Part shown: positions 815 to 14,828 of the stretch, one piece after another
Numbering within the stretch: position 1 is the first letter of the stretch
Layout of the letters: each line of letters opens with the position of its first letter
Assembly: GCA_902625365.1 (NCBI GenBank)
Contig: CACOAX010000008.1
Span: 1 to 35,942, forward strand
Direction: 5' to 3'
Length of the DNA: 35,942 bases
Source of the DNA: an uncultured Alphaproteobacteria bacterium
Lineage (GTDB): Bacteria > Pseudomonadota > Alphaproteobacteria > HIMB59 > GCA-002718135
Position numbers and translations under genes: made by a program
Notes under the pieces: model-generated
What the model was told of the DNA's origin: nothing
Database searches by the model: none
The model's input: only the letters and a program-made list of their open reading frames with translations

Positions 815-1894
815 TTATTTAAATGCTTGCCCTGAACTATCAAATAATTGACATCTTCCAGCAGGGAAGCCAACTTTTACAGTATCACCAACTTTAATTT
901 CTGAATGTCCTTCAGTTTCAGCAACTAATGGTTCTCCATCTTTTTCAAGGTATAGGTAAGTAACGTCACCAAGTTTTTCTACAACGAATACTTTACTTTC
1001 CCAAGATCCATCCGCATCACCATTTACTACTAAGTGTTCAGGTCTAATTCCTAAAGTTACTGAATCACCCTCTGAGGAGGATGCTGACATTTTAGAGACT
1101 GATATTTTTGACATTCCCATAATATCAACTTCTGTTGCATTAGAACTTTTGCTTAATATCTTACTTGAAATAAAGTTCATTTTTGGTGATCCAATAAATC
1201 CACCTACGAACATATTATTTGGTCTATCATAAAGTTCTAACGGGGATCCTTTTTGTGAAACGATACCTGTATCAAGTACAACAATATCATCAGCTAGGGT
1301 CATAGCTTCTGTCTGATCGTGTGTAACATAGATCATTGTTGCTTCTAGTTCATTATGAAGTTTTGCTAATTCAACTCTCATTTGAACTCTTAATGCAGCA
1401 TCAAGGTTTGAAAGTGGTTCATCAAATAAGAAAACTTTTGGCTTTCTAGTAATTGCTCTTCCAATAGCGACACGCTGCCTTTGACCACCTGAAAGTTGTT
1501 TTGGCTTTCTTTGAAGATAATCTTCTATTTGAAGAATTCTTGCTGCTTCATTAACTCTTTCATTAATTTCATCTTTTGATCTTTTTTCTAATTTCAAACC
1601 AAAAGCCATATTATCAAATACAGTCATGTGAGGGTATAATGCATACGATTGAAACACCATTGCAATATTTCTTTGCTTTGGTGGTAAATCATTTACTACT
1701 TGGCCATCAATTGAAATTGTACCTGAGTTTATGTCTTCCAGTCCCGCTATCATTCTTAACATAGTTGATTTACCACAACCACTTGGACCAACTAGAACTG
1801 TGAATGATTGACTTTTTATATCAAGAGAAACATCTTTAATTACATGGACGTCTCCAAAATATTTATTAACAGTATTTATATTTATATCTGCCAC
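815..1894 (-). CDS. aglK: ABC transporter ATPase of the UgpC/MalK/AglK type
   Basis: The cytoplasmic ATPase that powers sugar import through the AglF/AglG permeases encoded just upstream. From the chosen start it has 359 residues: Walker A GPSGCGKST (about 36-44), signature LSGGQRQRVAIGRA (from about 134), Walker B VFLFDEPLSNLDA (about 154-166), switch His in YVTHDQ (about 192), then a C-terminal TOBE/MalK regulatory region. I choose GTG at 1894 because AAGGAGGA precedes it by 5 bases. The ATG at 1945 has no SD and would add 17 residues (MYDDVF...) before the family's usual beginning. It follows aglG after 103 bases and a weak hairpin. In Sinorhizobium aglA sits between aglG and aglK, and no such gene is present here. 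Confidence 0.9.
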   Translation of the reverse strand: MADININTVNKYFGDVHVIKDVSLDIKSQSFTVLVGPSGCGKSTMLRMIAGLEDINSGTISIDGQVVNDLPPKQRNIAMVFQSYALYPHMTVFDNMAFGLKLEKRSKDEINERVNEAARILQIEDYLQRKPKQLSGGQRQRVAIGRAITRKPKVFLFDEPLSNLDAALRVQMRVELAKLHNELEATMIYVTHDQTEAMTLADDIVVLDTGIVSQKGSPLELYDRPNNMFVGGFIGSPKMNFISSKILSKSSNATEVDIMGMSKISVSKMSASSSEGDSVTLGIRPEHLVVNGDADGSWESKVFVVEKLGDVTYLYLEKDGEPLVAETEGHSEIKVGDTVKVGFPAGRCQLFDSSGQAFK

Positions 1895-1974
1895 TTCATC
1901 CTCCTTTGAGCGATCTTTCAAGTGTATGAATACATCATCATACAAATATATTTATATTTAAAGGTATATTTATT

Positions 1975-1998
1975 GAAAAATCAATACTTTTTAGTATT
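1975..1998 (-). terminator. Weak hairpin and T-run after aglG
   Basis: On the minus strand AATACT-AAAA-AGTATT overlaps the aglG stop codon and is followed by GATTTTTC. The stem is only 6 bp and AT-rich, so it may slow polymerase or protect a 3' end rather than fully stop transcription before aglK. Confidence 0.35.
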
Positions 1999-3137
1999 TA
2001 CCCTTTCACTGATCCAGCTACTAAACCTCGTATAAAATATCTCTGTAAGGCAAAAAAGATAAATAAAGGTACAGTCATTGATACAAAAGCACCAGTAGTT
2101 AAAATTTCCCAATTTTCACCTCTAGATCCAAGTAATTCTTTTAATTTTGCGGTTAATATTATTTCACTTGGAACCTGGTCTAAAAATACTAAACCCACTA
2201 AAAGATCATTCCAACACCATAAAAATTGTAAAATAAATATTGAAGCAAAAGCTGGTATTGAAAGAGGAATAATTATGCGTAAAAAAATATCATAATGAGA
2301 AGCACCATCAACTTTAGCAGCCTCCATCATTTCATTAGGTAAGCTTTTTAAAAAATTTCTTAATAGAAAAGTAGTTGAGGCTAATCCAAAACCAGTATGT
2401 GCCATCCAAACACCGGGATAGGACTTAGCTGCTACTCCAAATAATGCCCCAAAATCATTATAGATTGTTAGTATTGGTATTAGAGACATTTGAAGAGGAA
2501 CAACAAGAGACGCAATTATTATTGCTAATAAAGTATCTCTTCCATAAAATTTCATCCAAGTTAAGGAATATGCAAAGAAAGAGCATATTATTAAAGGAAT
2601 TAGTGTTGAAGGTAATGCTACGGCCATTGTATTAACAAAAGCTCTTCCAATTCCTTCTTTGAATAACACTTCTCTGTAATTTTCAAAAGTAAAAGCAGGA
2701 GGGCTTAATGATGTAGTAAATAATCTCTTACCTTTTTTCTTTTTAAATTCTGTTCTTGATCTCCATTCATAATTTCCATCTTCATCAAGAAGCACTTCAC
2801 TTTCATCTTTAAAAATTGCGATATCACCAATATTAAATTCATTAATTTTCTTTGAAGTAATTCCAAAACTTTCTATTTTTTTTCCTGAATTATCTTCAAA
2901 TAACTTTCCTTTAATTTTGAAATAACCATCTTCTTCAATTTGGCTTTCCATTCCTGACATTCTATAAATTTCATTTACTTCTGTAGTAGTTAAGGATGTC
3001 CACCATCCACTTATAGCTAATAAATCTTTATCTCTTAAAGAGCTAATAAACAGACCAAATGTAGGAATAATCCATATAATAACAAAGAAGAGGAGTAATA
3101 GTTGAGATAATAAAGATGATATTGAAAATTTCTTCAT
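1998..3137 (-). CDS. aglG: Alpha-glucoside-type ABC transporter permease AglG
   Basis: Inner-membrane permease (379 aa) of the MalG/AglG family, pairing with AglF. A first membrane segment (about 10-32) is followed by a hydrophilic insert of about 100 residues (about 35-150), expected on the periplasmic side and containing GWWTSL and YEWRSRTEF. The MetI-like core of about six membrane segments comes next. The ATPase-docking EAA loop is visible as EAAKVDGASHYDIFLRIIIP. The large insert and total length match AglG better than other MalG homologues. Its ATG overlaps the aglF stop by one base (TAATG), which implies translational coupling. Confidence 0.87.
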   Translation of the reverse strand: MKKFSISSLLSQLLLLFFVIIWIIPTFGLFISSLRDKDLLAISGWWTSLTTTEVNEIYRMSGMESQIEEDGYFKIKGKLFEDNSGKKIESFGITSKKINEFNIGDIAIFKDESEVLLDEDGNYEWRSRTEFKKKKGKRLFTTSLSPPAFTFENYREVLFKEGIGRAFVNTMAVALPSTLIPLIICSFFAYSLTWMKFYGRDTLLAIIIASLVVPLQMSLIPILTIYNDFGALFGVAAKSYPGVWMAHTGFGLASTTFLLRNFLKSLPNEMMEAAKVDGASHYDIFLRIIIPLSIPAFASIFILQFLWCWNDLLVGLVFLDQVPSEIILTAKLKELLGSRGENWEILTTGAFVSMTVPLFIFFALQRYFIRGLVAGSVKG

Positions 3138-4120
3138 TATATTTTTTGTTCCTGTCTATGTTTGTATAAATTCCATGCTAAGATTGGTATGACACCAATC
3201 ATAATAACAATTGCTAAAACACTTCCTCTTCCCGAGTCACCACCACCTCTAAACATCCAGTCGTACATTAAGTTCGCTAAGACTCCGGTTTGCCATTCAC
3301 CATTAGTCATAGCAAAAATAATATCAAATATTCTTAAAACAATTATTGTAATTAAGGTCCAAATCACAAGTATCGTTTGTTCTAAATAAGGAATTATAAT
3401 TGAAAAAAATATTTTTAACTCACTAGCTCCATCAATTCTTGCTGCTTCAAGCATTTCCTTAGGTATGCTTCTTAATGCAGCACTAAAAATAACTAAAGCT
3501 AATCCAGTTTGTATCCAAATCATAATAGCCATCAAAAAGAAATTGTTCCACATAGGTATTGTTAACCATGCTTGTGGCTCGTAACCAAGAGAAACAATTA
3601 TTGCATTAAGTAGTCCAATTTGTGTATTCTCAGGTCCTCTATATTCATAAATAAATTTCCAAATTACACCAGCTCCTACAAATGATATTGCCATAGGCAT
3701 AAATATTATAGATTTAGCAATTGAACCCCACCAAATTCTATCAGCTAAGTTTGCAATGACTAATCCAAAAAAAGTACTTAATGTTGGAACAACAAGTAAC
3801 CATACTAAGTTATTTAATATACTTCTTCTAAATTCAGGGTCATTAACTGCCCATTTGTAATTGTATAGTCCAACAAATTCTCTTCCAAATTTATCATAAA
3901 AGCTAAGTCTAATAGTTTCAAAAACTGGATATAAAATAAAAATAAATAAAACAATAAATGCGGGTGTTATAAAAACTATGACTCTTATAGAATTTTCAAA
4001 ATTATATCTTTTCAGGGTTTTATGGCCATAAATATCTAAAATATAATTTGAGATATGAAAGTAGGCTATAAAAAATAATATTCCTAAAAAAACAATAAAT
4101 ACTAAATTCAGGATGGTCAT
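3137..4120 (-). CDS. aglF: Alpha-glucoside-type ABC transporter permease AglF
   Basis: Inner-membrane permease (327 aa) of the MalF/AglF family, partner of AglG. The N-terminal hydrophobic segment (about 4-24) is followed by a second at about 47-68 and then the MetI-like core. The EAA loop reads EAARIDGASELKIFFSIIIP. It has no large MalF-type periplasmic domain, as is usual for AglF-like short forms. It begins just past the hairpin that follows aglE, with no obvious SD, and ends in a one-base overlap with aglG. The transported sugar is inferred only from similarity to the aglEFG set. Confidence 0.87.
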   Translation of the reverse strand: MTILNLVFIVFLGILFFIAYFHISNYILDIYGHKTLKRYNFENSIRVIVFITPAFIVLFIFILYPVFETIRLSFYDKFGREFVGLYNYKWAVNDPEFRRSILNNLVWLLVVPTLSTFFGLVIANLADRIWWGSIAKSIIFMPMAISFVGAGVIWKFIYEYRGPENTQIGLLNAIIVSLGYEPQAWLTIPMWNNFFLMAIMIWIQTGLALVIFSAALRSIPKEMLEAARIDGASELKIFFSIIIPYLEQTILVIWTLITIIVLRIFDIIFAMTNGEWQTGVLANLMYDWMFRGGGDSGRGSVLAIVIMIGVIPILAWNLYKHRQEQKI

Positions 4121-4136
4121 TAGTGATTAAATATAT

Positions 4137-4174
4137 AAAAAAAACAGGCGAACAAGTTAATTGTTCGCCTGTTT
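4137..4174 (-). terminator. Strong hairpin with T-run between aglE and aglF
   Basis: AAACAGGCGAACAA (4142-4155) and TTGTTCGCCTGTTT (4161-4174) form a perfect 14-bp stem with a 5-base loop. On the minus strand it is followed by a run of eight Ts, three of which also close the stem. It sits 12 bases past the aglE stop and upstream of aglF. The probable role is partial termination and/or mRNA 3'-end protection, giving more binding protein than permease. Confidence 0.8.
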
Positions 4175-4186
4175 ATAATTGAAAAG

Positions 4187-5491
4187 TTACTTAATTGCGT
4201 CCCAACTATCTTGGATCGCGTCTGCTACATCTTGGGCAGATTTTCCATTAGTATAGTCAACCATACCAGTCCAGAAAGTTCCAGCACCAATAGCACCAGG
4301 CATTAAGTCTGACGCATCAAATCTAAACGTTGTTGCGCCTGTTAAAATTTCACCTAGTTTTCTAAAAGTTTCACTAGCATATTTACTTCCATCAACACCT
4401 TTGTGAGGTGTTAGGAAACCACCTTTAGCCATCCAATATTCATGAGCTTCAGGATGCATTAAGAATTTAATGAACTCTATTGTCGCCTGGTTATCATTAG
4501 TAGCAGCTACTAATGTACCAGCTCCAAGTACAGGAGTTCCTAAATCTTTAGTTGCATATGCAGGGAAATAAAAGAAATCATAATCTACACCAGCTTCTAC
4601 ACCTTCAGGGAAAAATGCAGGAATAAAGCTAGCTTGTCTGTGCATCATACATTCTGCAGGTGAAGTGAAAAGTCCATTTGGAGCATCTCTAAAATCAGTA
4701 GTTGCTACTGCTTTCGATCCACCATTAACAAACTTGTCATTTAGCGCAAAAGTTCCAAAGAAATTCATTGCTTCAATAACTCTTGGGTCATTAAAAGGCA
4801 TTTCATTGGATACCCACATATCATAAACATCAGGTGTATGTGTTCTAAGCATGATATCTTCCATCCAGTCAGTTGCAGGCCAACCAGTTGCTGCACCTGA
4901 ACCTAAACCAATACACCATGGAGTATTTCCATCTGATGCCATTTGTCTTGTAAGTGCAATTAGTTCTTCCATAGTTCCAGGAACTTCGTAACCATTATCT
5001 TCAAAGTTATCTGGTGAATACCAAACCAAACTTTTTACGTTTGTTCTAAAGAAAATTGCATTAAACTGATCATTACCGTTTTCATCAGCATAAGTTGAAA
5101 GATCAACCCATGATTGTCCAGCAGCATAGTTATCTAAAACCATTTGCTTAATATCATCTCCAAGAGGAACTAATCCTCCCATAGCTGCTGCGTTTGCAGC
5201 AAGACCAGGTTGTGGAAATACAACTAGATCAGCAGCACTTCCAGCTTTTAGATCGATCATAACTTGTTGTTCAAAACTATCTGAACCACCATACTCAAAA
5301 GTTGCTCCTGTAGCTTTCTCGAATATAGCACCAACTTCTCTCATTGTTTCTTGTTCTGGTGATAACCAAGGACCAAACATAACTACTTTTTGTCCAGTTA
5401 AATCTGGACCAGAATATTTGTGACCTCCAGCATAAGCTGTGAAACTTAGAAATAATGAGGAGAGTATAATTAGTAAATTTTTAATTTTCAT
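4187..5491 (-). CDS. aglE: Alpha-glucoside-type ABC transporter substrate-binding protein AglE
   Basis: Periplasmic family-1 sugar-binding protein (434 aa). A signal peptide is clear: MKIKNLLIILSSL followed by a hydrophobic core, with likely cleavage after AYA near residue 21. Recognisable AglE stretches are GQKVVMFGPWLSPEQETMREV and DLVVFPQPGLAANAAAMGGL. ATG at 5491 is supported by GGAGG five bases upstream. It is first in the operon, so it is closest to the LacI operator and promoter. The ligand is probably an alpha-glucoside (sucrose, maltose or trehalose in rhizobial homologues), but it cannot be read from the sequence. Confidence 0.9.
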   Translation of the reverse strand: MKIKNLLIILSSLFLSFTAYAGGHKYSGPDLTGQKVVMFGPWLSPEQETMREVGAIFEKATGATFEYGGSDSFEQQVMIDLKAGSAADLVVFPQPGLAANAAAMGGLVPLGDDIKQMVLDNYAAGQSWVDLSTYADENGNDQFNAIFFRTNVKSLVWYSPDNFEDNGYEVPGTMEELIALTRQMASDGNTPWCIGLGSGAATGWPATDWMEDIMLRTHTPDVYDMWVSNEMPFNDPRVIEAMNFFGTFALNDKFVNGGSKAVATTDFRDAPNGLFTSPAECMMHRQASFIPAFFPEGVEAGVDYDFFYFPAYATKDLGTPVLGAGTLVAATNDNQATIEFIKFLMHPEAHEYWMAKGGFLTPHKGVDGSKYASETFRKLGEILTGATTFRFDASDLMPGAIGAGTFWTGMVDYTNGKSAQDVADAIQDSWDAIK

Positions 5492-5515: not shown

Positions 5516-5543
5516 TAATTATCCAAAACGTTTTGGTTGTCAA
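5516..5543 (-). promoter_or_regulatory. Probable sigma70-type promoter for aglE
   Basis: On the minus strand a perfect TTGACA (5538-5543) is followed after 16 bases by TAATTA (5516-5521), about 25 bases before aglE's start. The operator palindrome fills the spacer. The -10 is the weaker element. Confidence 0.55.
5523..5536. promoter_or_regulatory. LacI-family operator, perfect palindrome
   Basis: CCAAAACGTTTTGG is a perfect 14-bp palindrome with the central CG typical of LacI/GalR operators. It lies between the -35 and -10 of the presumed aglE promoter and 36 bases before the divergent regulator's start. The neighbouring LacI-type protein is its natural ligand, giving sugar-relieved repression of agl and probably autoregulation. 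Confidence 0.75.
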
Positions 5544-5572
5544 TTTATATTATCTGGTTTATGGAAAAAAAC

Positions 5573-6586
5573 ATGAATATTAAAGAATTGGCAAAAAAGC
5601 TTAATCTATCAATAACGACAGTTTCAAGGGGTTTAGCTAACTATTCAGATGTTAGTGAAAAAACAAAGATAAGAATTAAGAAATTTGCTGAAAAATATAA
5701 TTACAATCCTAATCCTTATGCTGCAAATTTGGCATCACGAAGCTCCAAGAATCTTGGCTTCATTCTGCCATTATATGGGTTAAATTCATCTCCTCTAAAT
5801 CAAATTTCATTTATTCAATTTTTATCAGGAATGTATTCTAATCTTTCAAAAAATAATATTCAGCTGACAATGCTCATGGCAAGAAGTCAAAATGAAGAAA
5901 AATCTTTATATGAAAAACTTATTGTAGAACAAAAGGTAAGGAATATCATTATTAATAATTTAAGAATTAATGATAGCAGAATACCACTTTTAAAAAAAAA
6001 TAAAGTTAATTTTGTAGCTTGGGGAAGAACACAAAATTTAAAAAATTATTCATGGGTAGATTTGGATAATCATAAAAGTATGCAAATTATTTTTGATCAC
6101 TTAATAAAAAAAAATCATGAAAAAATTGCATTTATAAATATTAATAAAAAATTTAATTTTGCTTATCAAAGAATGAAAACTTATTTAAGTGAAATAAAAA
6201 AATATAAAATTAATTTTGATAAAAACCTATACACTGAAATACCCAAAAATGATTCATTGTTAAGTGAGGAAGTTACAAGAAAATTGTTAAAAAATAAAAA
6301 AGTTACTGCTATTATATGTTGTACTGAATATATTGCAGCAGGTGCAATACGTGCGTGTAATGAACTAAAAATAAAAATTGGTCATGACATTTCTCTTATT
6401 ACGTATGATAGTTTAATAGTAAGTAATTTAATTACGCCAAAAATAACTTCAATTTCTCATCCTACAGAGGATTTAGGTTACAATGCAGTAAAGTTATTAA
6501 TGAGTAAGAATGGTAATGATTCTAAAAATAATTTTTATATGGCTAAGCCTACGATTATTGATAGAGGCTCAGTAAAAAAATTGTAA
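5573..6586 (+). CDS. LacI-family transcriptional regulator of the agl operon
   Basis: DNA-binding repressor with an N-terminal LacI helix-turn-helix (MNIKELAKKLNLSITTVSRGL, residues 1-21), a hinge region (NPNPYAANLAS) and a C-terminal periplasmic-binding-protein-like effector domain. It is 338 aa from the chosen start, a normal length. I start at the ATG at 5573 because residues 1-5 then match the usual beginning of LacI proteins. ATG at 5561 would add four residues and is possible. The TTG at 5537 abuts the operator and is unlikely. It diverges from aglE, corresponding in position to aglR of rhizobia. Its effector is presumably the sugar carried by AglEFGK. Confidence 0.85.
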   Translation: MNIKELAKKLNLSITTVSRGLANYSDVSEKTKIRIKKFAEKYNYNPNPYAANLASRSSKNLGFILPLYGLNSSPLNQISFIQFLSGMYSNLSKNNIQLTMLMARSQNEEKSLYEKLIVEQKVRNIIINNLRINDSRIPLLKKNKVNFVAWGRTQNLKNYSWVDLDNHKSMQIIFDHLIKKNHEKIAFININKKFNFAYQRMKTYLSEIKKYKINFDKNLYTEIPKNDSLLSEEVTRKLLKNKKVTAIICCTEYIAAGAIRACNELKIKIGHDISLITYDSLIVSNLITPKITSISHPTEDLGYNAVKLLMSKNGNDSKNNFYMAKPTIIDRGSVKKL

Positions 6587-6598
6587 CTATACTTATTA

Positions 6599-7594
6599 TT
6601 AGGAAGCAACTTCTTTTTGAATAAAATAACTATTATCTTTATGCTGTTTTATTATTGCTGGAATTATCTCCTTATAGGCATCATACAAACTAGAATTAGC
6701 TTTTGGTAATTGATCTTTAATTAAATTACTCAACTTGGGTAAGTTGTATGATGGTACGGAAGGAAACATATGATGCTCTACATGATATTCCATGTGCCAA
6801 TATAAAAAACTAAATATTGGATTAAAACGTACAGATCTAGTTGTGAACCTATGATCTTTTATATCTTCTGGTAGCCCTATGTGTTGGGTCATATTAAATA
6901 TGTTAACAATGTTACCCCAGTATCTAGGAAAAAATATTAATAATGCAGGCAGAGGGTTCATTAAATAAAATGATAGAGCAAAAGAAAGGATCCATAAAGA
7001 AACATGTATTCTTGAAATAAGACGACATTTCCAAATCTCATCTTGAGGAATACATTCCTTCATAACAGGTGTTGTCATTCCTAACGCATGCTTTATTGTT
7101 TCAAATTTAAAGGAGTCCTTGAACTTAATAAGTTCATAAAACGGAGCAAAACTAAATAGGAAACTTTTTAGACTTGGATATTGATGGAACAATGCTGCTT
7201 CAAAATCATGGGGGTCAGCAACAGAAGAAGTATTGCTATGGTGTCTAAAATGACTCCAAGTCCATCTAGTTGGTTCAAAGTCAGTCATAAAAGAACCAAT
7301 TTGATAAAAAAATTCATTTAAAAATTTTGATTTGAATGCAGTTCTATGTCCGCACTCATGCCAAATTGGGTTACTTGAATAGAAAAGAACACCGTAAAGC
7401 CATAACCACAAAACTGTCCACCATGTTCCCCAGGTAGCTACGGACATATATCCAAAAATAAATAAAAGAATAAAATATATAGTTACATGCTGTAATCCTT
7501 TTAGATCACTTTTTTTTGATAACTCTTTAAGATCTTTTTTACTTATTTCGGCTCTAAACCATTTGTCATCAACATTATCTAATTTTTCTGACAT
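6599..7594 (-). CDS. Membrane fatty-acid-desaturase-family protein (di-iron), paralogue 1
   Basis: Integral membrane protein (331 aa) with the three histidine boxes of the desaturase/hydroxylase superfamily: HECGH (79-83), HFRHH (115-119) and HVEHH (271-275). A further conserved TQHIGL lies near 236-241. Hydrophobic segments lie at about 35-75 and 195-225. These boxes bind a di-iron centre that activates O2. The substrate could be an acyl chain or another membrane-accessible molecule. It is last in the eight-gene unit, 61 bases after the Gfo/Idh gene, and tail-to-tail with the lacI gene (12 bases apart). It closely resembles the protein at 13815-14828, including the WFRAEISKKDLKELSKKSD N-terminus. 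Family is certain, reaction unknown. Confidence 0.85.
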   Translation of the reverse strand: MSEKLDNVDDKWFRAEISKKDLKELSKKSDLKGLQHVTIYFILLFIFGYMSVATWGTWWTVLWLWLYGVLFYSSNPIWHECGHRTAFKSKFLNEFFYQIGSFMTDFEPTRWTWSHFRHHSNTSSVADPHDFEAALFHQYPSLKSFLFSFAPFYELIKFKDSFKFETIKHALGMTTPVMKECIPQDEIWKCRLISRIHVSLWILSFALSFYLMNPLPALLIFFPRYWGNIVNIFNMTQHIGLPEDIKDHRFTTRSVRFNPIFSFLYWHMEYHVEHHMFPSVPSYNLPKLSNLIKDQLPKANSSLYDAYKEIIPAIIKQHKDNSYFIQKEVAS

Positions 7595-7655
7595 AAGACT
7601 TCCATTATAAAACTATTATGAGATTTTAAAGACAAATATTAACTATTTTGTCTCA

Positions 7656-8711
7656 CTAAACTTCAACCCATCTTCCAATTTTATTACTTTCTATACATTT
7701 ATCAATTATATTTTGAATTTTTGCACCTTGATAAAAATCGGGCTGCATATTCAAGTTTGTTTTTATTGACTCTATAAAGTTTTGATAATTACTTGGAGTT
7801 TTTGGACATTCAATTGTATCCCAAGCCATTATATTGATATTTTCGTCAACACAAATATGCAATGTAGACCACTTAGTCCTTTCCTCATCTAGTTCAACTT
7901 TTAAAGCACCTTTTGTACAAAATACTTCTAGAATTAGTGAGTTTGCATGTCCAGTTGCACATCTTGTATTAGTTATTGTTCCGATAGCTCCATTTTCAAA
8001 TCTAACTAATGAATTGAAACCATCATTAGCATCTAAAGTATATTCTTTAATTTTATTTCCTTTATCGAAGTAAGTTTTTAAATCAGTACATATCTCTTTT
8101 ATGTCACCTACAGCATTAACAGCAAAATCAAAAATATGAACACCTGTATCTCCTAAAGCACCGTTACTTCCATGTTTCGTTGATAGTCTCCACAACCATT
8201 TGTCTTCTTCTCTCCAATCACCCCATTTATTACTTGTAAGCCAAGACTGATAATAACAAGCACTAACATGTCTAGGATTTCCTATTTCTCCAGATTTTAA
8301 TATTTCAACCAATCTTTGATACGCACTTGATTCTCTATAAGTAAAATTGACCATATTAATTTTTTTAGATTGAACTGCCGCATTTACCATATCTTTTGCA
8401 TCACTATAATTTTCAGCAAGTGGTTTTTCACAAAAAACATTATAACCACTTTTTAAAATTTGCAGTGTAGTCTCTTTATGAAACTTATCAGGCGTTGTGT
8501 TGCTAATACCATCAAAAGTTTTTTCTTTTTCAAGCATTTCTTCTAAACTCAAATAACCTCTGATATCTGAATCTTTGTTATTTGATAAAAATATTTCTAA
8601 ATTTTTTTGATTTGTATCACAAACAGCTTCGACATTGACATTTGGCATATTGTTAAATTCATCAAGATGCCTTGAAGAGATATTTCCTGTTCCAACAATG
8701 CCAATTTTCAT
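7656..8711 (-). CDS. Gfo/Idh/MocA-family oxidoreductase, ThuB-like
   Basis: NAD(P)-dependent sugar or polyol dehydrogenase (351 aa). The N-terminal Rossmann motif is GTGNIS (7-12), the family motif CEKPLAE has the catalytic Lys at 96, and the active-site region GALGDTGVHIFDF carries Asp188 and His192. The C-terminal half is the family's beta-sheet domain. ATG at 8711 begins one base after the ThuA stop, so the two are translated together. The ThuA plus Gfo/Idh pairing recalls thuA-thuB of Sinorhizobium trehalose catabolism, where sugars are oxidised to 3-keto forms. By analogy this enzyme may make a keto-sugar, but the substrate here is unknown. Confidence 0.87.
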   Translation of the reverse strand: MKIGIVGTGNISSRHLDEFNNMPNVNVEAVCDTNQKNLEIFLSNNKDSDIRGYLSLEEMLEKEKTFDGISNTTPDKFHKETTLQILKSGYNVFCEKPLAENYSDAKDMVNAAVQSKKINMVNFTYRESSAYQRLVEILKSGEIGNPRHVSACYYQSWLTSNKWGDWREEDKWLWRLSTKHGSNGALGDTGVHIFDFAVNAVGDIKEICTDLKTYFDKGNKIKEYTLDANDGFNSLVRFENGAIGTITNTRCATGHANSLILEVFCTKGALKVELDEERTKWSTLHICVDENINIMAWDTIECPKTPSNYQNFIESIKTNLNMQPDFYQGAKIQNIIDKCIESNKIGRWVEV

Positions 8712-8712
8712 T

Positions 8713-9495
8713 TTATTTTTCTTCTGTTGGATGTCCTACACTAAAACCTTTCTTACTAATCTTTTCAATAGGTTTTGGTCTATTACTTTTGGGAGTAGGA
8801 AAATGTATATCTTCCCACAAAACTTTATTTGTCTGTTTTACAAAATGTATTGCATTTTTAATTACAATTTGCACATTAATATTATGATAAGTTGGATATG
8901 CTTCATGACCTGGTCGAAAATAAAATATTTGACCATTTCCTCTTCTATATAATAATCCTGATCTAAAAGTTTCTCCTCCTTCAAACCAACTAGTAAAAAG
9001 TGTTTCATCTGGAGATGGAACCTGAAAAGGCTCACCATACATTTCTTCCATTTCTAGTTCAAAATGTGGCTCTAAACCCTCACAGATAGGATGACCAGGA
9101 TTGCATACCCATAATCTTTCTTTTTCACCATATTCTCTCCAGGTTAAATTACAATTAGTGCCCATTAATCTTTTAAATATCTTAGAATGATGTCCGGAAT
9201 GTAATGTTATTAAGCCCATTCCTTCAAGAACTCGTCGTTGTACTAAATCAACTGTCTTATCTAATACTTCTTCATGTGCTTTATGACCCCACCAAATAAG
9301 AACATCACAATTTTTTAATAATTCCTCACTTAACCCATTTTGATCTTCTTTGAGCGTAGCAGTTTTAATTTTTAAACTATTATCAGTTGATAAAAAATCT
9401 TTTATGCAGCCATGAATACCTTTGGGATAAATTTTTTTAACTTCTTCATTTTCTACTTCATGAATATTTTCATTCCAAATTATAATATTAGTCAT
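8713..9495 (-). CDS. thuA: ThuA-like (trehalose utilisation) domain protein
   Basis: A 260-aa protein with the ThuA fold, related to class-I glutamine amidotransferases. Recognisable stretches are CDVLIWWGHKAHEEV, GLITLHSGHHSKIFKRLMG, VCNPGHPICEG and RRGNGQIFYFRPGHEAYPTY near the C-terminus. No signal peptide, so cytoplasmic. ThuA proteins accompany Gfo/Idh oxidoreductases in sugar-catabolic operons and are thought to act on keto-sugar or glycoside intermediates. It lies 6 bases after the permease and 1 base before the oxidoreductase. The symbol reflects family, not proven trehalose use. Confidence 0.82.
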   Translation of the reverse strand: MTNIIIWNENIHEVENEEVKKIYPKGIHGCIKDFLSTDNSLKIKTATLKEDQNGLSEELLKNCDVLIWWGHKAHEEVLDKTVDLVQRRVLEGMGLITLHSGHHSKIFKRLMGTNCNLTWREYGEKERLWVCNPGHPICEGLEPHFELEMEEMYGEPFQVPSPDETLFTSWFEGGETFRSGLLYRRGNGQIFYFRPGHEAYPTYHNINVQIVIKNAIHFVKQTNKVLWEDIHFPTPKSNRPKPIEKISKKGFSVGHPTEEK

Positions 9496-9501
9496 CTACT
9501 A

Positions 9502-10476
9502 CTATCTAACTCTTTCTCCGTGCAACCGATGTCCTAGTAATGCTAGTAATATGATTAATCCGTTAAAGAATTGTCTCCACTCACCACTCCAGCCAATGGC
9601 AATAATTCCTATTTCCATATAGGCAATTATACCAACGCCAAATACTGCTCCAATAATAGTTCCTAACCCTCCCCAGTAAGGAGTGCCGCCAACAAAAACA
9701 GCTGCTAGAGCAAGTAATAAATAACCAAATCCTTGAGTAGGGAAAAATGTATAAGTAATCATTGTTGTAAAAATTCCACCAATAGCAGAGCCAATACCTA
9801 CAAACATGAATGCTTTAATCTTAACGGCATTTACATTAATACCCATCTGTTCTGCGCTAACAGAATTATCTCCTACATGCTGAATATGAATACCAAAAAC
9901 ATGTTTGTTAAAAAAATAATAGCAAAAAATTACAAATATTGCTGCCCAAAAAATTTGCATTGGGAAGCCATAAAAATTTCCAACTAAAAGAGGGTAGATC
10001 CAGTGGCTCTCTACTTCCATAATTGTAATTGATCTGCTGTTAGATAATAAGAGAATTACACCTCTTAGTAAAAATAATACTCCAAGAGACGCAACAAGAG
10101 AGGAAAGTCTAAATACAACAATTAATGTTCCAACGAGAGCACCTATAGCTGCTCCAGTAAAAATACCAAGAACTAAACAAATAGCTGGATCAACTCCATT
10201 TTTAACAAGTAAAGCAAATACGTAAGCTGCTACAGCGTAAGTAGAGGCAAAAGAAAGATCTATTTCACCAGATGCAACTAGAAAAACTAATGGTATAGTT
10301 AAAAATATCAAAGTTGGCATCATTACAAATACTGATTGATGAAGGTTAGGTCTTATCCAAGCTTCTGGTGCACCTACTAAAAAAATTACCATTAAAAGTA
10401 CAAAGTATCCAATGCTTCCTAAAGCTCTTCCATTTCTGTGAAAGTAATTACTTAAATATGAATTATTATTGCTCAT
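9502..10476 (-). CDS. Ribose/fructose-type ABC transporter permease (RbsC/FrcC family)
   Basis: Polytopic inner-membrane permease (324 aa) of the BPD_transp_2 family with 8-10 hydrophobic segments. Typical stretches are LVFLVASGEIDLSFAS (the family's GGIDLS-like segment), GQ-less LVGTLIVVFRLSSLVASLG, and AAVFVGGTPYWGGLGTIIGAVFG. ATG at 10476 overlaps the ATPase stop by one base (TAATG), with GGAG a few bases upstream inside the ATPase gene. It forms one importer with the neighbouring binding protein and ATPase. In the first motif E replaces the more usual G before IDLS. Confidence 0.88.
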   Translation of the reverse strand: MSNNNSYLSNYFHRNGRALGSIGYFVLLMVIFLVGAPEAWIRPNLHQSVFVMMPTLIFLTIPLVFLVASGEIDLSFASTYAVAAYVFALLVKNGVDPAICLVLGIFTGAAIGALVGTLIVVFRLSSLVASLGVLFLLRGVILLLSNSRSITIMEVESHWIYPLLVGNFYGFPMQIFWAAIFVIFCYYFFNKHVFGIHIQHVGDNSVSAEQMGINVNAVKIKAFMFVGIGSAIGGIFTTMITYTFFPTQGFGYLLLALAAVFVGGTPYWGGLGTIIGAVFGVGIIAYMEIGIIAIGWSGEWRQFFNGLIILLALLGHRLHGERVR

Positions 10477-11222
10477 TAGTGTGCTCCTATAGTATCTCTC
10501 ATTATTTTCATGAGTTCTTCTGGAGTAGATATGTCATTCTTATTGAGTTGATGAACGACTTCTCCTCTATCTAAAATTACAAATCTATCTGATATGTCGT
10601 ATACATGATAAATATTATGACCAATAAATAGAACAGATCTATTTGATTTTTTTACATTTAAGACAAAATCAAAAACTTTCTGTGTTTCATTAAGAGATAA
10701 ATTATTTGTTGGCTCGTCAAGAACAATTAATTCTGCTTTATTATAAATTGCTCTTGCAATTGCTACGCCTTGTCTTTCACCTCCGGATAAATTTCCAACT
10801 GGAGATTCAGCATTTATTAATTTTGATGTAAAACCTATTTCTCTTATTAATCTATTTGCTTCAAAAATTTGTTCTTTTTCTTTTATAAAACCAAATGGAT
10901 ACCGAAGTTCCTTACCCATAAAAATATTTTTAACTATTGATTGTTGTGGAGTTAAAGCTCTATCTTGAAAAACAGTTTCTATACCAGACTCTCTAGCTTT
11001 GAGTGCATTCCAAGCGTTTACTTTTTTTCCTCTTATAAGTATATCACCTTCGTCAGGACTATAAACGCCTACTAGTGTTTTAATTAATGTTGATTTACCT
11101 GCCCCATTATCACCAATTAAACCTACAACTTCACCCCTGGTTACTTTTAATGATGCTTTGTTTAGAGCAGTAATACCGCCAAATCTTTTTGTAACATTAT
11201 CTAATTCAATGATATTTTCCAT
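10476..11222 (-). CDS. Sugar ABC transporter ATPase, single-domain (FrcA type)
   Basis: Cytoplasmic ATPase (248 aa): Walker A GDNGAGKST (37-45), signature LSGGERQGVAIARA (145-158), Walker B ELIVLDEPTNNLS (Asp169, Glu170) and switch His202 in FIGHN. RbsA/XylG ATPases of this transporter class are usually about 500 aa with two nucleotide-binding domains. This one has a single domain, like FrcA, so it must work as a homodimer. It starts 47 bases after the binding-protein gene, just beyond a hairpin. Confidence 0.88.
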   Translation of the reverse strand: MENIIELDNVTKRFGGITALNKASLKVTRGEVVGLIGDNGAGKSTLIKTLVGVYSPDEGDILIRGKKVNAWNALKARESGIETVFQDRALTPQQSIVKNIFMGKELRYPFGFIKEKEQIFEANRLIREIGFTSKLINAESPVGNLSGGERQGVAIARAIYNKAELIVLDEPTNNLSLNETQKVFDFVLNVKKSNRSVLFIGHNIYHVYDISDRFVILDRGEVVHQLNKNDISTPEELMKIMRDTIGAH

Positions 11223-11233
11223 AAATTTTGAAA

Positions 11234-11259
11234 TGCTAACCCATTAAAATGGGTTAGCA
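11234..11259 (-). terminator. Hairpin between the binding-protein and ATPase genes
   Basis: TGCTAACCCAT (11234-11244) and ATGGGTTAGCA (11249-11259) form a perfect 11-bp stem with a 4-base loop, 10 bases past the binding-protein stop. There is no long T-run after it on the minus strand, so it is more likely an mRNA 3'-end stabiliser or partial attenuator than a full terminator. Confidence 0.6.
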
Positions 11260-11269
11260 ATATATTTAC

Positions 11270-12265
11270 CTATCTTAAGCCTGCATCAGCAAGAGCTTTA
11301 ACAGCTTGATAGTTATTTGTATCAACAAATCCTGCACCAGTATCTTGGTTTATTGCACCAGTACCAAGTACAGCTGTTTGACAAAGTGATAACACTGGAA
11401 GATACCCTTGAAGGAAAGGTTGTTGATCAGATGTTAGATGAACATATCCTTTTTCAAATGCCGACATAATTTGTGGGCTAGTATCAAATCCAATTTGAAG
11501 TAACTCATTTGGTCCATAACCAGCAGCTTTGGCAATACCTTCTGCAACATTCATTACATCACTTCCAGAGTGAACAATTACTTTTGTTTCAGGATTTGCA
11601 TTTAACGCTGCTGAGAAAACTGGGATAGTCATATTCGGATCTGAAGCATAAGCTGGTTGTCCATCGAGAACAGTAACTGTCATTCCGTGTTCTTCAAATA
11701 TGATTCTTGCACCATCTTCTCTCTGTGCTCTAGCGTAATCTCCAATAGGAACCATTACTATAGCGTGATCTCCAGCTTTGAAACCAAATTGCCTAATTGC
11801 TTCTCTTGCAAGAGCTTTACCTTGAGTTGCTAAATTTGCTCCTACGTATCCGCCACCAAATTTTGCTCTTACACCTGATGGATCAACATTTTGATATGTC
11901 ATTAGAATACCTTTTTCAGCAGCTTGTTTTGCTAAAGGCATTAGAGCTTCATCTCCCGGATGCCCCATCATTGCAATAGCATCTACTCCAAGTCCAACTG
12001 ATTCTCTAAGTTGACGGACCATTTTTTCAAAATCCCATTCTGAGTAAATAATTTCAGCATCTGCTCCTGTATCTCTTATTGCATTCATTGCTCCTGCTGC
12101 AACTATTCCAGCAAAGCCACCAGCTTCAGGACCGCCAGCATAGAAATGCATTTTTACGTCTGAGCACCATTTATCACCAAGATCTTGTCCAGTTGGAGCA
12201 GCATATGCATGCATAGAAACTGGAAGAAGAAAAATTGTGATTAAAAATAATTTTATAATTTTCAT
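11270..12265 (-). CDS. Sugar ABC transporter substrate-binding protein (Peripla_BP_4 family)
   Basis: Periplasmic binding protein (331 aa from the chosen start) of the ribose/galactose type. The signal peptide is MKIIKLFLITIFLLPVSMHAYA, with cleavage near residue 22. The mature protein begins APTGQDLGDKWC and shows GVDAIAMMGHPGDEAL and VHSGSDVMNVAEGIAKA, typical of this fold. I prefer the ATG at 12265 because GGGAGG stands just upstream of it. That SD lies within the first codons of the alternative ATG at 12277. It is encoded between the aldehyde dehydrogenase and the ATPase. The ligand is unknown; a pentose, hexose or cyclitol would be usual. Confidence 0.88.
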   Translation of the reverse strand: MKIIKLFLITIFLLPVSMHAYAAPTGQDLGDKWCSDVKMHFYAGGPEAGGFAGIVAAGAMNAIRDTGADAEIIYSEWDFEKMVRQLRESVGLGVDAIAMMGHPGDEALMPLAKQAAEKGILMTYQNVDPSGVRAKFGGGYVGANLATQGKALAREAIRQFGFKAGDHAIVMVPIGDYARAQREDGARIIFEEHGMTVTVLDGQPAYASDPNMTIPVFSAALNANPETKVIVHSGSDVMNVAEGIAKAAGYGPNELLQIGFDTSPQIMSAFEKGYVHLTSDQQPFLQGYLPVLSLCQTAVLGTGAINQDTGAGFVDTNNYQAVKALADAGLR

Positions 12266-12291
12266 AATTCCTCCCATGAATTAATTTAAAT

Positions 12292-12334
12292 ATTATAATA
12301 ATGTTGTTAAACTAAAAATAACTGTGAATGTCAA
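12292..12334 (-). promoter_or_regulatory. Possible internal promoter before the binding-protein gene
   Basis: On the minus strand a perfect TTGACA (12329-12334) directly follows the aldehyde dehydrogenase stop. TTTAAC lies 17 bases on, and a perfect TATAAT (12292-12297) lies further down. No single pair has both ideal boxes at ideal spacing, so this is suggestive only. It would allow the importer genes to be expressed above the upstream genes. Confidence 0.35.
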
Positions 12335-13771
12335 CTAGTACAATCTTTTACTTATTCTTTTAGTTTGTCCGTGACTGTATATACCATCAACACCACCGTC
12401 TCTCCCATAACCTGATCTTTTATATCCACCACCTGGAAGATTGGTACCATCTACAAACCAATCATTTTGCCAAATTATTCCTGCCTGTATCCTATCTGCT
12501 GTCCATTTTGCTTTTTGATCATCAGCAGTAAACACTCCAGAAGCTAATCCATATTTTGTTGAATTTGCAATATTTATAGCTTCTTCTTCATCTTCAAAAT
12601 CAAAAATAGATGTAACTGGACCAAATATTTCCTCCTGAGCAATTGTTGCTTCAACTTTAACATTATCAAAAATTGTTGGTTGATAAAAATTACCATCATC
12701 TCTATCAGCTTTATCTCCACCTAATGTTAGGGTGGCACCAGATTGTATTCCTGATTTTACATAATTCGAAACTCTTTGCATTTGATCAGTTGAAATAAGA
12801 GGTGTTACTTGTGTGCCATCTTCGTTTCCAGCACCAACTTTTAATTTTTGAGTTTTAGCTACAAGTTTTGTCATATATTCATCTTTTATTTTAGGATGAA
12901 CAATTACCCTCGACATTGCCACACATATTTGTCCTGCATTAGGTTTAAAAATTCCTTTAACAGTACTATCAACAGCTTTATCAATATCTGCGTCAGGATA
13001 AATAATAGCTGCAGACTTTCCGCCTAATTCAAAATGCGTAGGTATAATTCTATCAGCTGTTTCTTTTAAAATTTCTGATGCAACTTCTGGAGATCCAGTG
13101 AAAACGATATAGTCACAACCTGAATGTTGAACTAGCTTTCTTCCAGTGGTTTCACCATAACCATGAATAATATTAATAATTCCTTTAGGGACACCAACCT
13201 CTTGAAATATTTGACCATAAAAATTTGAAGAAATAGGACATAACTCAGGGGGTTTAATTACAATAGTATTGCCAACAATCCAGTTTTGCGCAACCATTCC
13301 AGAAAACAAAGAAACAGGATAATTCCATGGAACAATTTGTAGTGCTACCCCAAAAGGTTCTAAGACAACATAATTTAAAGTATCATTTCCTGAAGGGATT
13401 AATTTATTTTCTATTTTATCTGTTAGTCCGGCATAGAAGTCAAATGTATCTGCTGCACCTTTAAATTCATCTACACATTGTTTGATTGTTTTACCATTTT
13501 CTTGACTTAAAAGTTTACCACCTTCATCTTTACGTTCCCTTAATTTTTGAGCAATTGCTCTCATCATATTTGATTTATCTTTTGCATCCATATCTAATAA
13601 TATTCTTTTATCGAATGCTCTTTTGGCTGCTTTAAAAGCTAAATCTATTTCTTCATCTAGAGCTTCATCAATATTTCCTACAATTTTTTGATTTGCTGGA
13701 TTTAAAACAGGAATATTCCTATTTGATATTGAATCAATAAATTTACCATCAATAAAATTTCTTAACTCCAT
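12335..13771 (-). CDS. NAD(P)-dependent aldehyde dehydrogenase
   Basis: Cytoplasmic ALDH-superfamily enzyme (478 aa, normal length) oxidising an aldehyde to a carboxylate. Catalytic residues are all visible: Asn150 in VPWNYP, Glu248 in HFELGGKSAA, and the nucleophile Cys283 in NAGQICVAMSR, with the cofactor-binding FTGSPEV segment near 224-230. The family includes betaine-aldehyde, lactaldehyde, glycolaldehyde and aldose-type dehydrogenases, and I cannot choose among them. It lies second in the unit, 43 bases after the first desaturase gene and 57 before the binding protein. That suggests it oxidises an aldehyde made from the imported compound or from a desaturase/hydroxylase product. Confidence 0.85.
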   Translation of the reverse strand: MELRNFIDGKFIDSISNRNIPVLNPANQKIVGNIDEALDEEIDLAFKAAKRAFDKRILLDMDAKDKSNMMRAIAQKLRERKDEGGKLLSQENGKTIKQCVDEFKGAADTFDFYAGLTDKIENKLIPSGNDTLNYVVLEPFGVALQIVPWNYPVSLFSGMVAQNWIVGNTIVIKPPELCPISSNFYGQIFQEVGVPKGIINIIHGYGETTGRKLVQHSGCDYIVFTGSPEVASEILKETADRIIPTHFELGGKSAAIIYPDADIDKAVDSTVKGIFKPNAGQICVAMSRVIVHPKIKDEYMTKLVAKTQKLKVGAGNEDGTQVTPLISTDQMQRVSNYVKSGIQSGATLTLGGDKADRDDGNFYQPTIFDNVKVEATIAQEEIFGPVTSIFDFEDEEEAINIANSTKYGLASGVFTADDQKAKWTADRIQAGIIWQNDWFVDGTNLPGGGYKRSGYGRDGGVDGIYSHGQTKRISKRLY

Positions 13772-13814
13772 ATATTATCAATAAAACTAAAGTTCAGGAA
13801 GTGTCAAGTATAGT

Positions 13815-14828
13815 TTAATTATTTGGAACTTGTACAGGTATATAATAATCTGGGTTTTTTGTTTTTTTAATAACAGCTGGGATTATATCTTTATATGCAG
13901 AGTATAAAGTTTGTGGTTCAGGTAACTGATCTTTTATTGCTTCATATAATTTAGGAAGATTGTAAGAAGGTACCATTGGAAACATATGATGTTCGATATG
14001 ATATTCCATTTTCCAATAAATAAAACTAAAAATAGGATTTAGCCTAACAGACCTAGTAGATAGTCGATGATCCTTTACATTTTCTTGAAGACCCATGTGT
14101 TGAGTCATACCCCATATTCCATTAAAAGAAGCAAAAAACTTTGGTACTAAAAATAAGAGGATTGGAAGTAATGATGCAAAGTAAATTGAAGAAGCAATTA
14201 TTGAAATCCAAAGAAAAACAAAAAGTCTTGAGCTATTAATACAATCTTTAATTTTATCATCTGGAATACAATCATTCATTACGTCTGTTTTAATACCTAT
14301 GGCGTGTTTTATGATTTCGACATAAAGTGACTTGTGTAAAGTTAAAAAACCGATGCCAGGAATAAAATTCAAAACAAAACTTAGAAATGTATGTTTTGCA
14401 AAAATACTTCCATCGACCTCATAATCATGAGGATCTACAGAAGCTGTATAACTGTGGTGAAGTGAGTGACTCCATTTCCACCTAACAGGTTCGAAGTTAT
14501 TCATAAAGCTAGCAATATTATAAAAGAAATTATTTAGTTTTCTTGTTTTAAATGCAGTCCCGTGACCACACTCATGCCAAATAGCATCTGCTCCTCCCCA
14601 CATCATACAATAAGCTAGGTAAACAGGAAGAAACCAAATTGTTTGCCATGAATATAGAGACAATAAACCTAAAACAGTTAATGATAATGAAAAAATGATT
14701 ATGTGTTTCCAACCTTCGTAGTCTGATCTTTTCGATAGATTTTTAAGTGTTTTTCTATCTATATTGGCTCTAAACCATTGATCTGAAATGTTATTAATTC
14801 CTGTTTGAATTTTTTTGGTTTCCGACAT
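13815..14828 (-). CDS. Membrane fatty-acid-desaturase-family protein (di-iron), paralogue 2
   Basis: Integral membrane protein (337 aa) with histidine boxes HECGH (85-89), HSLHH (121-125) and HIEHH (277-281), plus TQHMGL near 242-247. Hydrophobic stretches are at about 42-80 and 202-232. It opens the minus-strand unit and is a full-length paralogue of the protein at 6599-7594. They share the N-terminal WFRANIDRKTLKNLSKRSD block, a DPHD motif shortly after box 2, VKDHRLSTRSVRLNPIFSF and the region around box 3. All iron ligands are intact in both, so both should be active. The electron donor (ferredoxin, rubredoxin or cytochrome) is not encoded nearby. Confidence 0.85.
   Translation of the reverse strand: MSETKKIQTGINNISDQWFRANIDRKTLKNLSKRSDYEGWKHIIIFSLSLTVLGLLSLYSWQTIWFLPVYLAYCMMWGGADAIWHECGHGTAFKTRKLNNFFYNIASFMNNFEPVRWKWSHSLHHSYTASVDPHDYEVDGSIFAKHTFLSFVLNFIPGIGFLTLHKSLYVEIIKHAIGIKTDVMNDCIPDDKIKDCINSSRLFVFLWISIIASSIYFASLLPILLFLVPKFFASFNGIWGMTQHMGLQENVKDHRLSTRSVRLNPIFSFIYWKMEYHIEHHMFPMVPSYNLPKLYEAIKDQLPEPQTLYSAYKDIIPAVIKKTKNPDYYIPVQVPNN

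Follow-up and report, generated by a model that had tools for sequence, protein, structure and literature searches.

We analysed a window of 35,942 nucleotides, the whole of contig C8 (CACOAX010000008.1) of a 1.03 Mb, 55% complete genome (GCA_902625365.1) from an uncultured alphaproteobacterium of the HIMB59 lineage. Eight of its genes, at 6599-14828, form a unit that encodes two desaturase-like membrane proteins, an aldehyde dehydrogenase (ALDH), a CUT2-type importer, a ThuA homologue and a Gfo/Idh/MocA dehydrogenase. Our best reading of the unit makes it a hybrid of rhizopine moc and thuEFGKAB, two systems already known. With modest confidence, we favour its being an operon that would degrade an O-methylated sugar glycoside or a methylated cyclitol glycoside by import, oxidative O-demethylation and 3-keto cleavage. 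Relatives of the window also point to a possible long-sought formaldehyde-trapping enzyme, a paralogue of ketopantoate hydroxymethyltransferase (PanB) that we call PanBL.

Layout of the unit

A reading made from the sequence alone (the sequence-only reading) had described eight same-strand genes with gaps of -1 to 61 bases, and the open reading frames (ORFs) and Pfam matches bear this out. All eight ORFs are on the minus strand, in the transcribed order desat1, aldh, binding protein, ATPase, permease, thuA, gfo, desat2, and are separated, by ascending coordinate, by 61, 1, 6, -1, 47, 57 and 43 bases. Each product matches a Pfam family above its curated cut-off (FA_desaturase twice, Aldedh, Peripla_BP_4, ABC_tran, BPD_transp_2, ThuA and GFO_IDH_MocA). 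The GC content of the window is 25-34% (2-kb steps).

13815-14828, minus strand: desat1, predicted MocD-branch membrane di-iron oxygenase, first gene of the unit (PF00487, 123 bits; homology and tree)
12335-13771, minus strand: aldh, aldehyde dehydrogenase (PF00171, 494 bits)
11270-12277, minus strand: CUT2-type periplasmic sugar-binding protein, MocB-like (PF13407; PDB 4ru1, E 1.8e-10)
11234-11259, no strand assigned: 11-pair inverted repeat, a possible stem-loop, directly after the CUT2 binding-protein gene
10476-11222, minus strand: single-domain importer ATPase (PF00005)
9502-10476, minus strand: RbsC-type permease (PF02653)
8713-9495, minus strand: ThuA homologue (PF06283; PDB 1t0b, E 1e-92)
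7656-8711, minus strand: gfo, ThuB-like Gfo/Idh/MocA dehydrogenase (Pfam; homology to rhizobial ThuB)
6599-7594, minus strand: desat2, second predicted MocD-branch membrane oxygenase (PF00487, 114 bits; homology and tree)

Two predicted oxygenases resembling MocD

The proteins desat1 and desat2 are 51% identical and have their His boxes in common, with box histidines that are invariant among 11 homologues; the sequence-only reading had likewise seen two paralogues with intact boxes. The protein desat1 is 39% identical to the annotated MocD of Rhizobium etli and 38% to the MocD of Rhizobium indicum plasmid pPR13E04 (locus L197; itself matched by no NCBIfam model at E 1e-20), and desat2 is 35-36% identical to rhizobial MocD. 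In a tree of 101 rows the paralogues of the genus fall into several clades, among them supported desat1 (25 rows) and desat2 (17 rows) clades. Both adjoin a clade with the R. etli and L197 MocD proteins and stand apart from more distant PF00487 rows; the fork joining the desat clades, the MocD clade and two long-branched rows is open, and no proven lipid desaturase is among the rows. We therefore regard desat1 and desat2, on sequence grounds, as best read as MocD-type membrane di-iron oxygenases. The primary paper on MocD is reportedly that of Bahar (1998). MocD is called a rhizopine oxygenase, converting 3-O-methyl-scyllo-inosamine (3-O-MSI) to scyllo-inosamine (SI) (excerpt of PMC2593844), and the mocB and mocD promoters are described as inducible by rhizopine (excerpt of PMC10107442).

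The Pfam name FA_desaturase could suggest instead that the two proteins are acyl-lipid desaturases, placed in the operon for regulation only. This is highly improbable: scores with the DesA and DesB lipid-desaturase models are 25-44 bits, far under the cut-off of 500, the proteins group with MocD (in the tree lacking a lipid-desaturase control), and CUT2 importer, MocE and PanBL genes recur as neighbours in relatives. On model scores and neighbours we set the lipid desaturase aside, and the earlier suggestion that the O2-dependent step may act on lipids is weakened; the rest of that suggestion, in which something sugar-like is imported, oxidised and itself attacked with O2, fits the genes of the relatives.

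Conservation and exchange of the unit in relatives

Orthologues (E < 1e-160) of one or both desaturases occur in 26 of 37 genomes of the genus and in none of 24 from the sister family. We fetched 26 orthologous loci, 25 from genus genomes besides the window's and one from G220; several are cut by contig ends, which often account for genes missing from them. The gene desat1 is present in 24 of these loci, desat2 in 17, and thuA with gfo in 21; 15 of the 26 hold all four. The sequence-only reading had proposed a search for just this co-occurrence of both desaturases with ThuA and Gfo/Idh in other genomes, and its own refutation, desaturases standing apart from the sugar genes, is not borne out in the genus. 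Wherever desat1 is present (24/24) it adjoins aldh, with a beta-lactamase-family gene separating the two in L039, L098 and L100 and a 146-codon opposite ORF there in L044, and thuA and gfo are neighbours in all 21 fetched loci having both (22/22 with the window). The beta-lactamase-family gene (L039 16044-17219, L098 6620-7795, L100 10093-11283) lies on the strand opposite to desat1 and aldh; the L039 copy is PF00144, and those in L098 and L100 are 97-99% identical to it. For the eight genes, the ratio of nonsynonymous to synonymous divergence (dN/dS) lies at 0.03-0.14 against L090 and L093 (zero for the ATPase against L090) and reaches 0.38 (gfo) against L099.

L099 belongs to the second of two thuA/gfo types. 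Type A (thuA 81-97% and gfo 80-98% identical to the window) is found in eight loci and the window, and type B (65-67% and 49-52%) in 13 loci; the thuA type agrees with the gfo type in 22 of 22 loci, the window counted. The CUT2 importer departs from this division: L041, L094 and L095 combine type B thuA/gfo with a 96-100% identical importer. L091 and L095 have different CUT1 permeases next to MalK proteins whose identity rounds to 100%. Between the window and G005, synonymous divergence (dS) is 0.09-0.16 from gfo through the binding protein, 0.22 for aldh, 1.01 for desat1 and 0.72 for desat2, thus indicating that the middle of the unit was exchanged recently.

Such exchange of the middle alone would also fit if there were no single pathway, only two or three independent cassettes at a common exchange site with oxygenases unrelated in function to ThuA/ThuB, and thuA was found within 9 kb in none of the 80 rhizobial-type MocD loci listed (see below). 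We consider this very unlikely, given that order and bracketing are kept in 15 fetched loci and the window and that the dS of desat1 is near or above 1 in all five comparisons made.

The place between permease and malK that thuA and gfo occupy in L046 is taken in L042 by a GH4 gene. Its best model is alpha-galactosidase, at 291 bits under a cut-off of 486. Because GH4 enzymes act via a 3-keto intermediate, the swap would fit an equivalent job performed by ThuB and ThuA.

Comparison with the rhizopine and thu systems

The rhizopine moc system of Rhizobium and Sinorhizobium shares with the window a MocB-like CUT2 binding protein, a Gfo/Idh/MocA dehydrogenase and an oxygenase of the MocD branch. 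It differs in that the unit is without MocR (a LacI-family gene is found instead) and without a MocC-like gene, has two MocD paralogues, adds ThuA and ALDH, and has a Gfo protein that is ThuB-like; MocE and MocF genes do not adjoin the MocD-type genes of the unit and are on contig C4 instead. A rhizopine pathway proper was rejected for the window: the rhizopine binding-protein model NF052284 is the best NCBIfam match of its CUT2 binding protein at 68 bits, well short of the cut-off of 420, and the regulator is of the LacI family, not MocR. The same model is best for six of eight CUT2 binding proteins scanned from MocD loci, always below 420 (83 bits in L032, 101 in L033, 76 in L082, 124 in L195, 138 in L197); a second protein in L197 is best matched by MglB, and the protein in L196 by none. 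Rhizobium pisi L106, considered as a rhizopine anchor, was rejected for having no binding protein above the cut-off.

The other half of the unit resembles thuEFGKAB of rhizobia and Agrobacterium, which shares with the window an adjacent pair of ThuA and a ThuB-like dehydrogenase and a nearby CUT1 importer with a ThuK-like ATPase. The window ThuA is 56% identical to that of S. meliloti pSymB and 61% to that of R. johnstonii, and its Gfo protein 40-43% to rhizobial ThuB over nearly the full length; among NCBIfam models the Gfo protein is closest to levoglucosan dehydrogenase (136 of 650 bits), and its nearest solved structure is the scyllo-inositol/L-glucose dehydrogenase 5ya8. The CUT1 importer adjoins the unit, beyond a LacI gene, as follows.

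5537-6586, plus strand: LacI-family regulator, possibly for the unit and/or the adjoining importer
4187-5491, minus strand: CUT1 (SBP_bac_1) binding protein, ThuE class
3137-4120 and 1998-3137, minus strand: two CUT1 permeases, ThuF/ThuG class
815-1945, minus strand: MalK/ThuK-type ATPase

The CUT1 ATPase is 53% identical to ThuK and the permeases 25-29% to ThuF/ThuG, and BLAST finds no similarity between the binding protein and S. meliloti ThuE at E 1e-3. Compared with thuEFGKAB, the window thus has permeases at most 29% identical and no ThuE match, has the LacI gene in between, and adds the MocD enzymes, ALDH and a CUT2 importer. The sequence-only reading took the ThuA/Gfo pair for ThuA/ThuB-like and noted that in rhizobia a different importer class, ThuEFGK, serves them; a complete importer of the ThuEFGK class (815-5491) lies on the unit's strand 1.1 kb downstream. 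CUT1 genes also adjoin the unit on its strand in L042, L043, L044 and L046. The LacI protein has homologues of 97% identity in L036 and L103 and of 50-65% in seven other loci, with none found in the remainder. Directly 3' of the CUT1 binding-protein gene (4142-4174), a 14-pair hairpin with a T-run behind it may terminate or stabilise the transcript; hairpin-type sites in the region are not above chance (6 against 5.7 expected).

In rhizobia and Agrobacterium, thuEFGKAB handles trehalose, maltitol and sucrose isomers via 3-keto derivatives (excerpt of PMC6683767; Ampomah 2013); on the mechanism of ThuA, nothing usable beyond that excerpt's thuEFGKAB passage was met in the literature searched. 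The earlier claim to know no described pathway with this combination was partly wrong: both halves have precedents, in rhizopine moc with MocDEF and in thuEFGKAB, whereas the hybrid of MocD with ThuA/ThuB was not met in the literature searched, to which most subscription journals are external.

MocD homologues in this genome and elsewhere

The window genome encodes five MocD homologues. The three outside the window are at two loci, each with its own CUT2 importer: on contig C4, two MocD genes occur with the importer, a MocF-like reductase, a MocE-like Rieske ferredoxin, two PF02548 genes, a PF04116 membrane protein, a gluconolactonase and an IlvD/EDD dehydratase, and on contig C23 one occurs with CUT2, Gfo and PhyH genes. 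The available half of the genome has two Rieske matches, one being the MocE-like protein on C4. Across the 37 genomes of the genus, most of them incomplete and about 0.9-1.6 Mb in size, the MocD model has 127 matches with E values up to 0.001, including weak or partial ones. If the demethylation reading is true, the trait would accordingly be large in an abundant ocean group. G018 and G022, incomplete genomes of 1.3 and 1.5 Mb, have seven such matches each. L065, from a genome of another family, has two adjacent MocD homologues, a MocE-like ferredoxin and two CUT1-type permease labels (7909-11739).

A scan of 84,980 genomes gave at least 80 named MocD loci, from Rhizobiales/Hyphomicrobiales or Rhodobacterales by title and biased to kin of the first row. 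Gene labels in these 80 loci come from BLAST, some at 24-30% identity, the weaker ones without confirmation by Pfam. Among the 80 MocD loci listed, MocE is labelled in 79, MocF in 65, PanBL in 50, a CUT2-like ATPase in 44, a permease in 43, a TIM barrel in 43 and two Gfo labels in 25 and 12.

The sister family has MocD in 22 of 24 genomes. Its MocD-PanBL genes have as neighbours a glutamine-synthetase-like gene and one for a Rieske ring hydroxylase (for example, at L034 7215-12027, a hint of an N-methyl compound). This raises the prospect of N-demethylation or a betaine-type pathway, acting on an N-methyl compound or its glycoside with ALDH as a betaine-aldehyde-type enzyme, and betaine-aldehyde dehydrogenase is indeed the best NCBIfam model of the window ALDH (437 bits, under a cut-off of 668.6). 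We think this quite unlikely, as several further aldehyde dehydrogenase models give ALDH about 340-387 bits, and ThuA/ThuB and both importers are carbohydrate types.

PanBL, a divergent PanB paralogue

PanBL proteins are divergent members of PF02548 that score at least 217 bits with our alignment model against at most 158 for the next group, the threshold being set in the gap. A PanBL gene is found in or beside the unit in nine of the 26 sister loci: beside aldh in L042, L043, L044 and L102, and on the opposite strand, alongside PhyH, in L038, L039, L040, L096 and L098. In a class-wide sample of 385 genomes, 21 have PanBL, 49 have MocD (E 1e-40) and 11 have both, against 2.7 expected (Fisher p 6e-6); with the window's order removed, six have both against 1.9 expected (p 0.006). 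The two genes are close together on one contig in eight of the 11 genomes with both, and outside the window's order in three of six (G088, G281, G347), the other three having them on separate contigs. Among the 80 MocD loci listed, PanBL starts within 1.72 kb of the MocD end in all 50 that bear it. In the sister family a divergent PF02548 gene directly adjoins MocD in 21 of the 22 genomes with MocD and is absent from the two without it; in L047 the MocD and PanBL ORFs overlap by 8 bases. The association is not universal. PanBL in every MocD locus was rejected, 30 of the 80 being without it in the stretch covered, and some divergent PF02548 genes of the genus lie away from MocD (for example, on contig C20 of G000). 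Among seven plasmid regions, PanBL is annotated in L048, L196 and L197, and not in L195, L198, L199 and L200. In L048 (12483-16961), an NrtR/AraR-like regulator gene and nadABC come next after the MocDEF-PanBL genes of R. etli.

The two PanBL proteins scanned are both under the curated PanB cut-offs. The model of a rhizobial PanBL (L126) has a PanB fold (mean pLDDT 80.6; best Foldseek match 3vav, E 5.9e-19). PanB and PanBL have in common the predicted fold and two residues, H132 and E177, kept in 100 and 99 of 100 PanBL rows. By contrast, four other conserved residues are lost in at least 96 of these rows: D40 is kept in 4, D79 in 2, K108 in 1 and E110 in 1 (reference, five canonical PanB proteins of the window's order; the 100 rows are not independent). 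We take these four to be the metal and 2-oxoacid site of E. coli PanB (D45, D84, K112, E114).

A possible one-carbon exit

In R. indicum L197 the gene order is MocR, MocD, MocE, MocF, PanBL, PurU; MocR (739 bits against the rhizopine cut-off of 650), MocE and PurU are above curated cut-offs, and neither of the two binding proteins is above the rhizopine cut-off. The gene purU occurs in 14 of the 80 MocD loci listed, always with PanBL, and in none of the 30 without it (Fisher p 0.0006, from related genomes that are not independent). It directly follows PanBL in 12 of the 14, with a four-base overlap in L176 and L180, and is more than 8 kb off in L150 and L151. PurU converts 10-formyl-tetrahydrofolate to formate and tetrahydrofolate (THF). 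Its reaction and its pairing with PanBL therefore suggest that PanBL plausibly puts a one-carbon unit onto THF. A purU exit in the window's own order is unsupported: none of 61 relatives is above the PurU cut-off, and 58 have weaker matches, probably PurN or Fmt.

Spontaneous joining of formaldehyde and THF is described as too slow for an effective route (excerpt of He et al. 2020, PMC7073904). Two E. coli enzymes, PanB among them, are named in the same excerpt as perhaps joining them by promiscuity, and deletion of panB and ltaE is reported there to have changed nothing; ordinary PanB is therefore not the answer. PanBL is a concrete candidate for the joining enzyme, judged by its sequence, because its own substrate site is gone and it recurs alongside demethylases, and it makes testable a question left open in that excerpt. 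We tentatively propose, as a possibility that we would on balance still doubt, that PanBL, a PanB minus its 2-oxoacid site, is dedicated to condensing formaldehyde with tetrahydrofolate and has evolved as a catcher of the formaldehyde of MocD-type and perhaps some Rieske and PhyH-type demethylases. The window unit would then belong to a broad MocD/PanBL demethylation family feeding sugar methyl groups into the one-carbon metabolism of streamlined ocean bacteria and soil rhizobia. The literature searched linked neither mocD with purU nor ketopantoate hydroxymethyltransferase with demethylation; one source, available in excerpt, gives panB of P. putida J5 a role in nicotine catabolism, and a second lists a PanB study among its references.

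These one-carbon families also bear on the prospect of hydroxylation without demethylation, in which the substrate of the MocD-type enzymes, whether a sugar, a deoxysugar or a small solute, would be hydroxylated at a C-H bond and the product oxidised by ALDH. The same Pfam family hydroxylates other small molecules; GntB, a guanitoxin L-arginine hydroxylase, is the top NCBIfam model for desat1 (52 bits, cut-off 380) and the second for desat2 (30.5 bits), and one MocD locus (L035) has an L-rhamnose mutarotase-like gene. PanBL and PurU, however, recur with MocD in relatives and would have no clear role without one-carbon release, which makes hydroxylation alone rather unlikely in our view.

Proposed pathway

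From the observed genes, homologies, gene order, conservation and exchange patterns we infer a substrate, a series of reactions, transcription as an operon and an electron supply in trans. The compound and/or its monosaccharide part would be imported by the adjoining CUT1 and the internal CUT2 importers. The enzymes desat1 and desat2 would hydroxylate O-methyl groups, from which formaldehyde leaves, drawing electrons in trans from the MocE-like Rieske ferredoxin and MocF-like reductase encoded on C4; that there are two such enzymes may reflect two methyl positions or a pair of related substrates. The ThuB-like dehydrogenase would oxidise C3 to give a 3-keto glycoside, whose opening ThuA would complete, and ALDH may oxidise an aldehyde product. 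Formaldehyde would pass to THF via the PanB paralogue, which is encoded in the unit in some sister species and elsewhere in the window genome. To our knowledge, sugar demethylation systems have not been described from free-living plankton, and none was met in the literature searched. Porphyran, an algal polysaccharide, contains a methylated sugar, 6-O-methyl-D-galactose, and porphyran-using marine Flavobacteriia remove its O-methyl group by an O2-dependent reaction giving sugar and formaldehyde (excerpt of PMC10033563), as we propose for the window. Their demethylase is a cytochrome P450, in contrast to the putative membrane di-iron MocD-type enzyme here.

Besides the absence of thuA from the rhizobial-type loci, several findings weigh against an O-demethylating operon. 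The window's unit itself has neither MocE nor MocF nor PanBL, and 17 of the 26 sister loci also lack PanBL in the stretch covered. The gene desat2 is absent from L042 and L046, because malK comes next after GH4 or gfo there, and the GH4 replacement is seen at the single locus L042. In L053, L066 and L070, from other alphaproteobacteria, where MocD is linked more loosely to sugar genes, MocD homologues are near SBP_bac_5/oligo_HPY peptide-type importers, M20 peptidases and a metalloenzyme-superfamily or iron-alcohol-dehydrogenase gene. MocD is therefore not always tied to sugars, and a strict sugar-only link was rejected. No importer was recognised among the labelled genes at the MocD-PanBL loci of the sister family, where a part of the ORFs was scanned. 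Finally, structure prediction for MocD gave a poor model, with a mean pLDDT of 71.6 and nothing matching it in the PDB at E 0.001, which was set aside as evidence, and the best match of a profile of 11 MocD rows to solved chains is alkane monooxygenase at E 0.044.

PanBL genes away from MocD

That PanBL is a partner of demethylases only was likewise rejected, since ten genomes of the class sample have PanBL and no MocD at E 1e-40. Regions from eight of the ten were covered (L056-L063; G250 and G371 are the other two genomes). Beside PanBL, L062 has a Rieske ring hydroxylase, L061 a PhyH dioxygenase and L058 a MocE-like ferredoxin and purU; among the genes scanned or labelled in L056, L057, L059, L060 and L063 there is no oxygenase-type or MocE/purU gene. 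L058 (994-13184) contains CUT2 importer genes, three Gfo labels, two TIM barrels, the MocE-like ferredoxin, PanBL and PurU, with no oxygenase recognised. L068 (8152-13481) and L086 (6714-11938) each have two adjacent PanBL genes with PhyH-like genes (two in L068, three in L086) and a BNR-repeat protein, with no MocD labelled; an aminotransferase IV gene was identified in L068 and not in L086. These two loci may represent another oxygenase/PanBL pathway.

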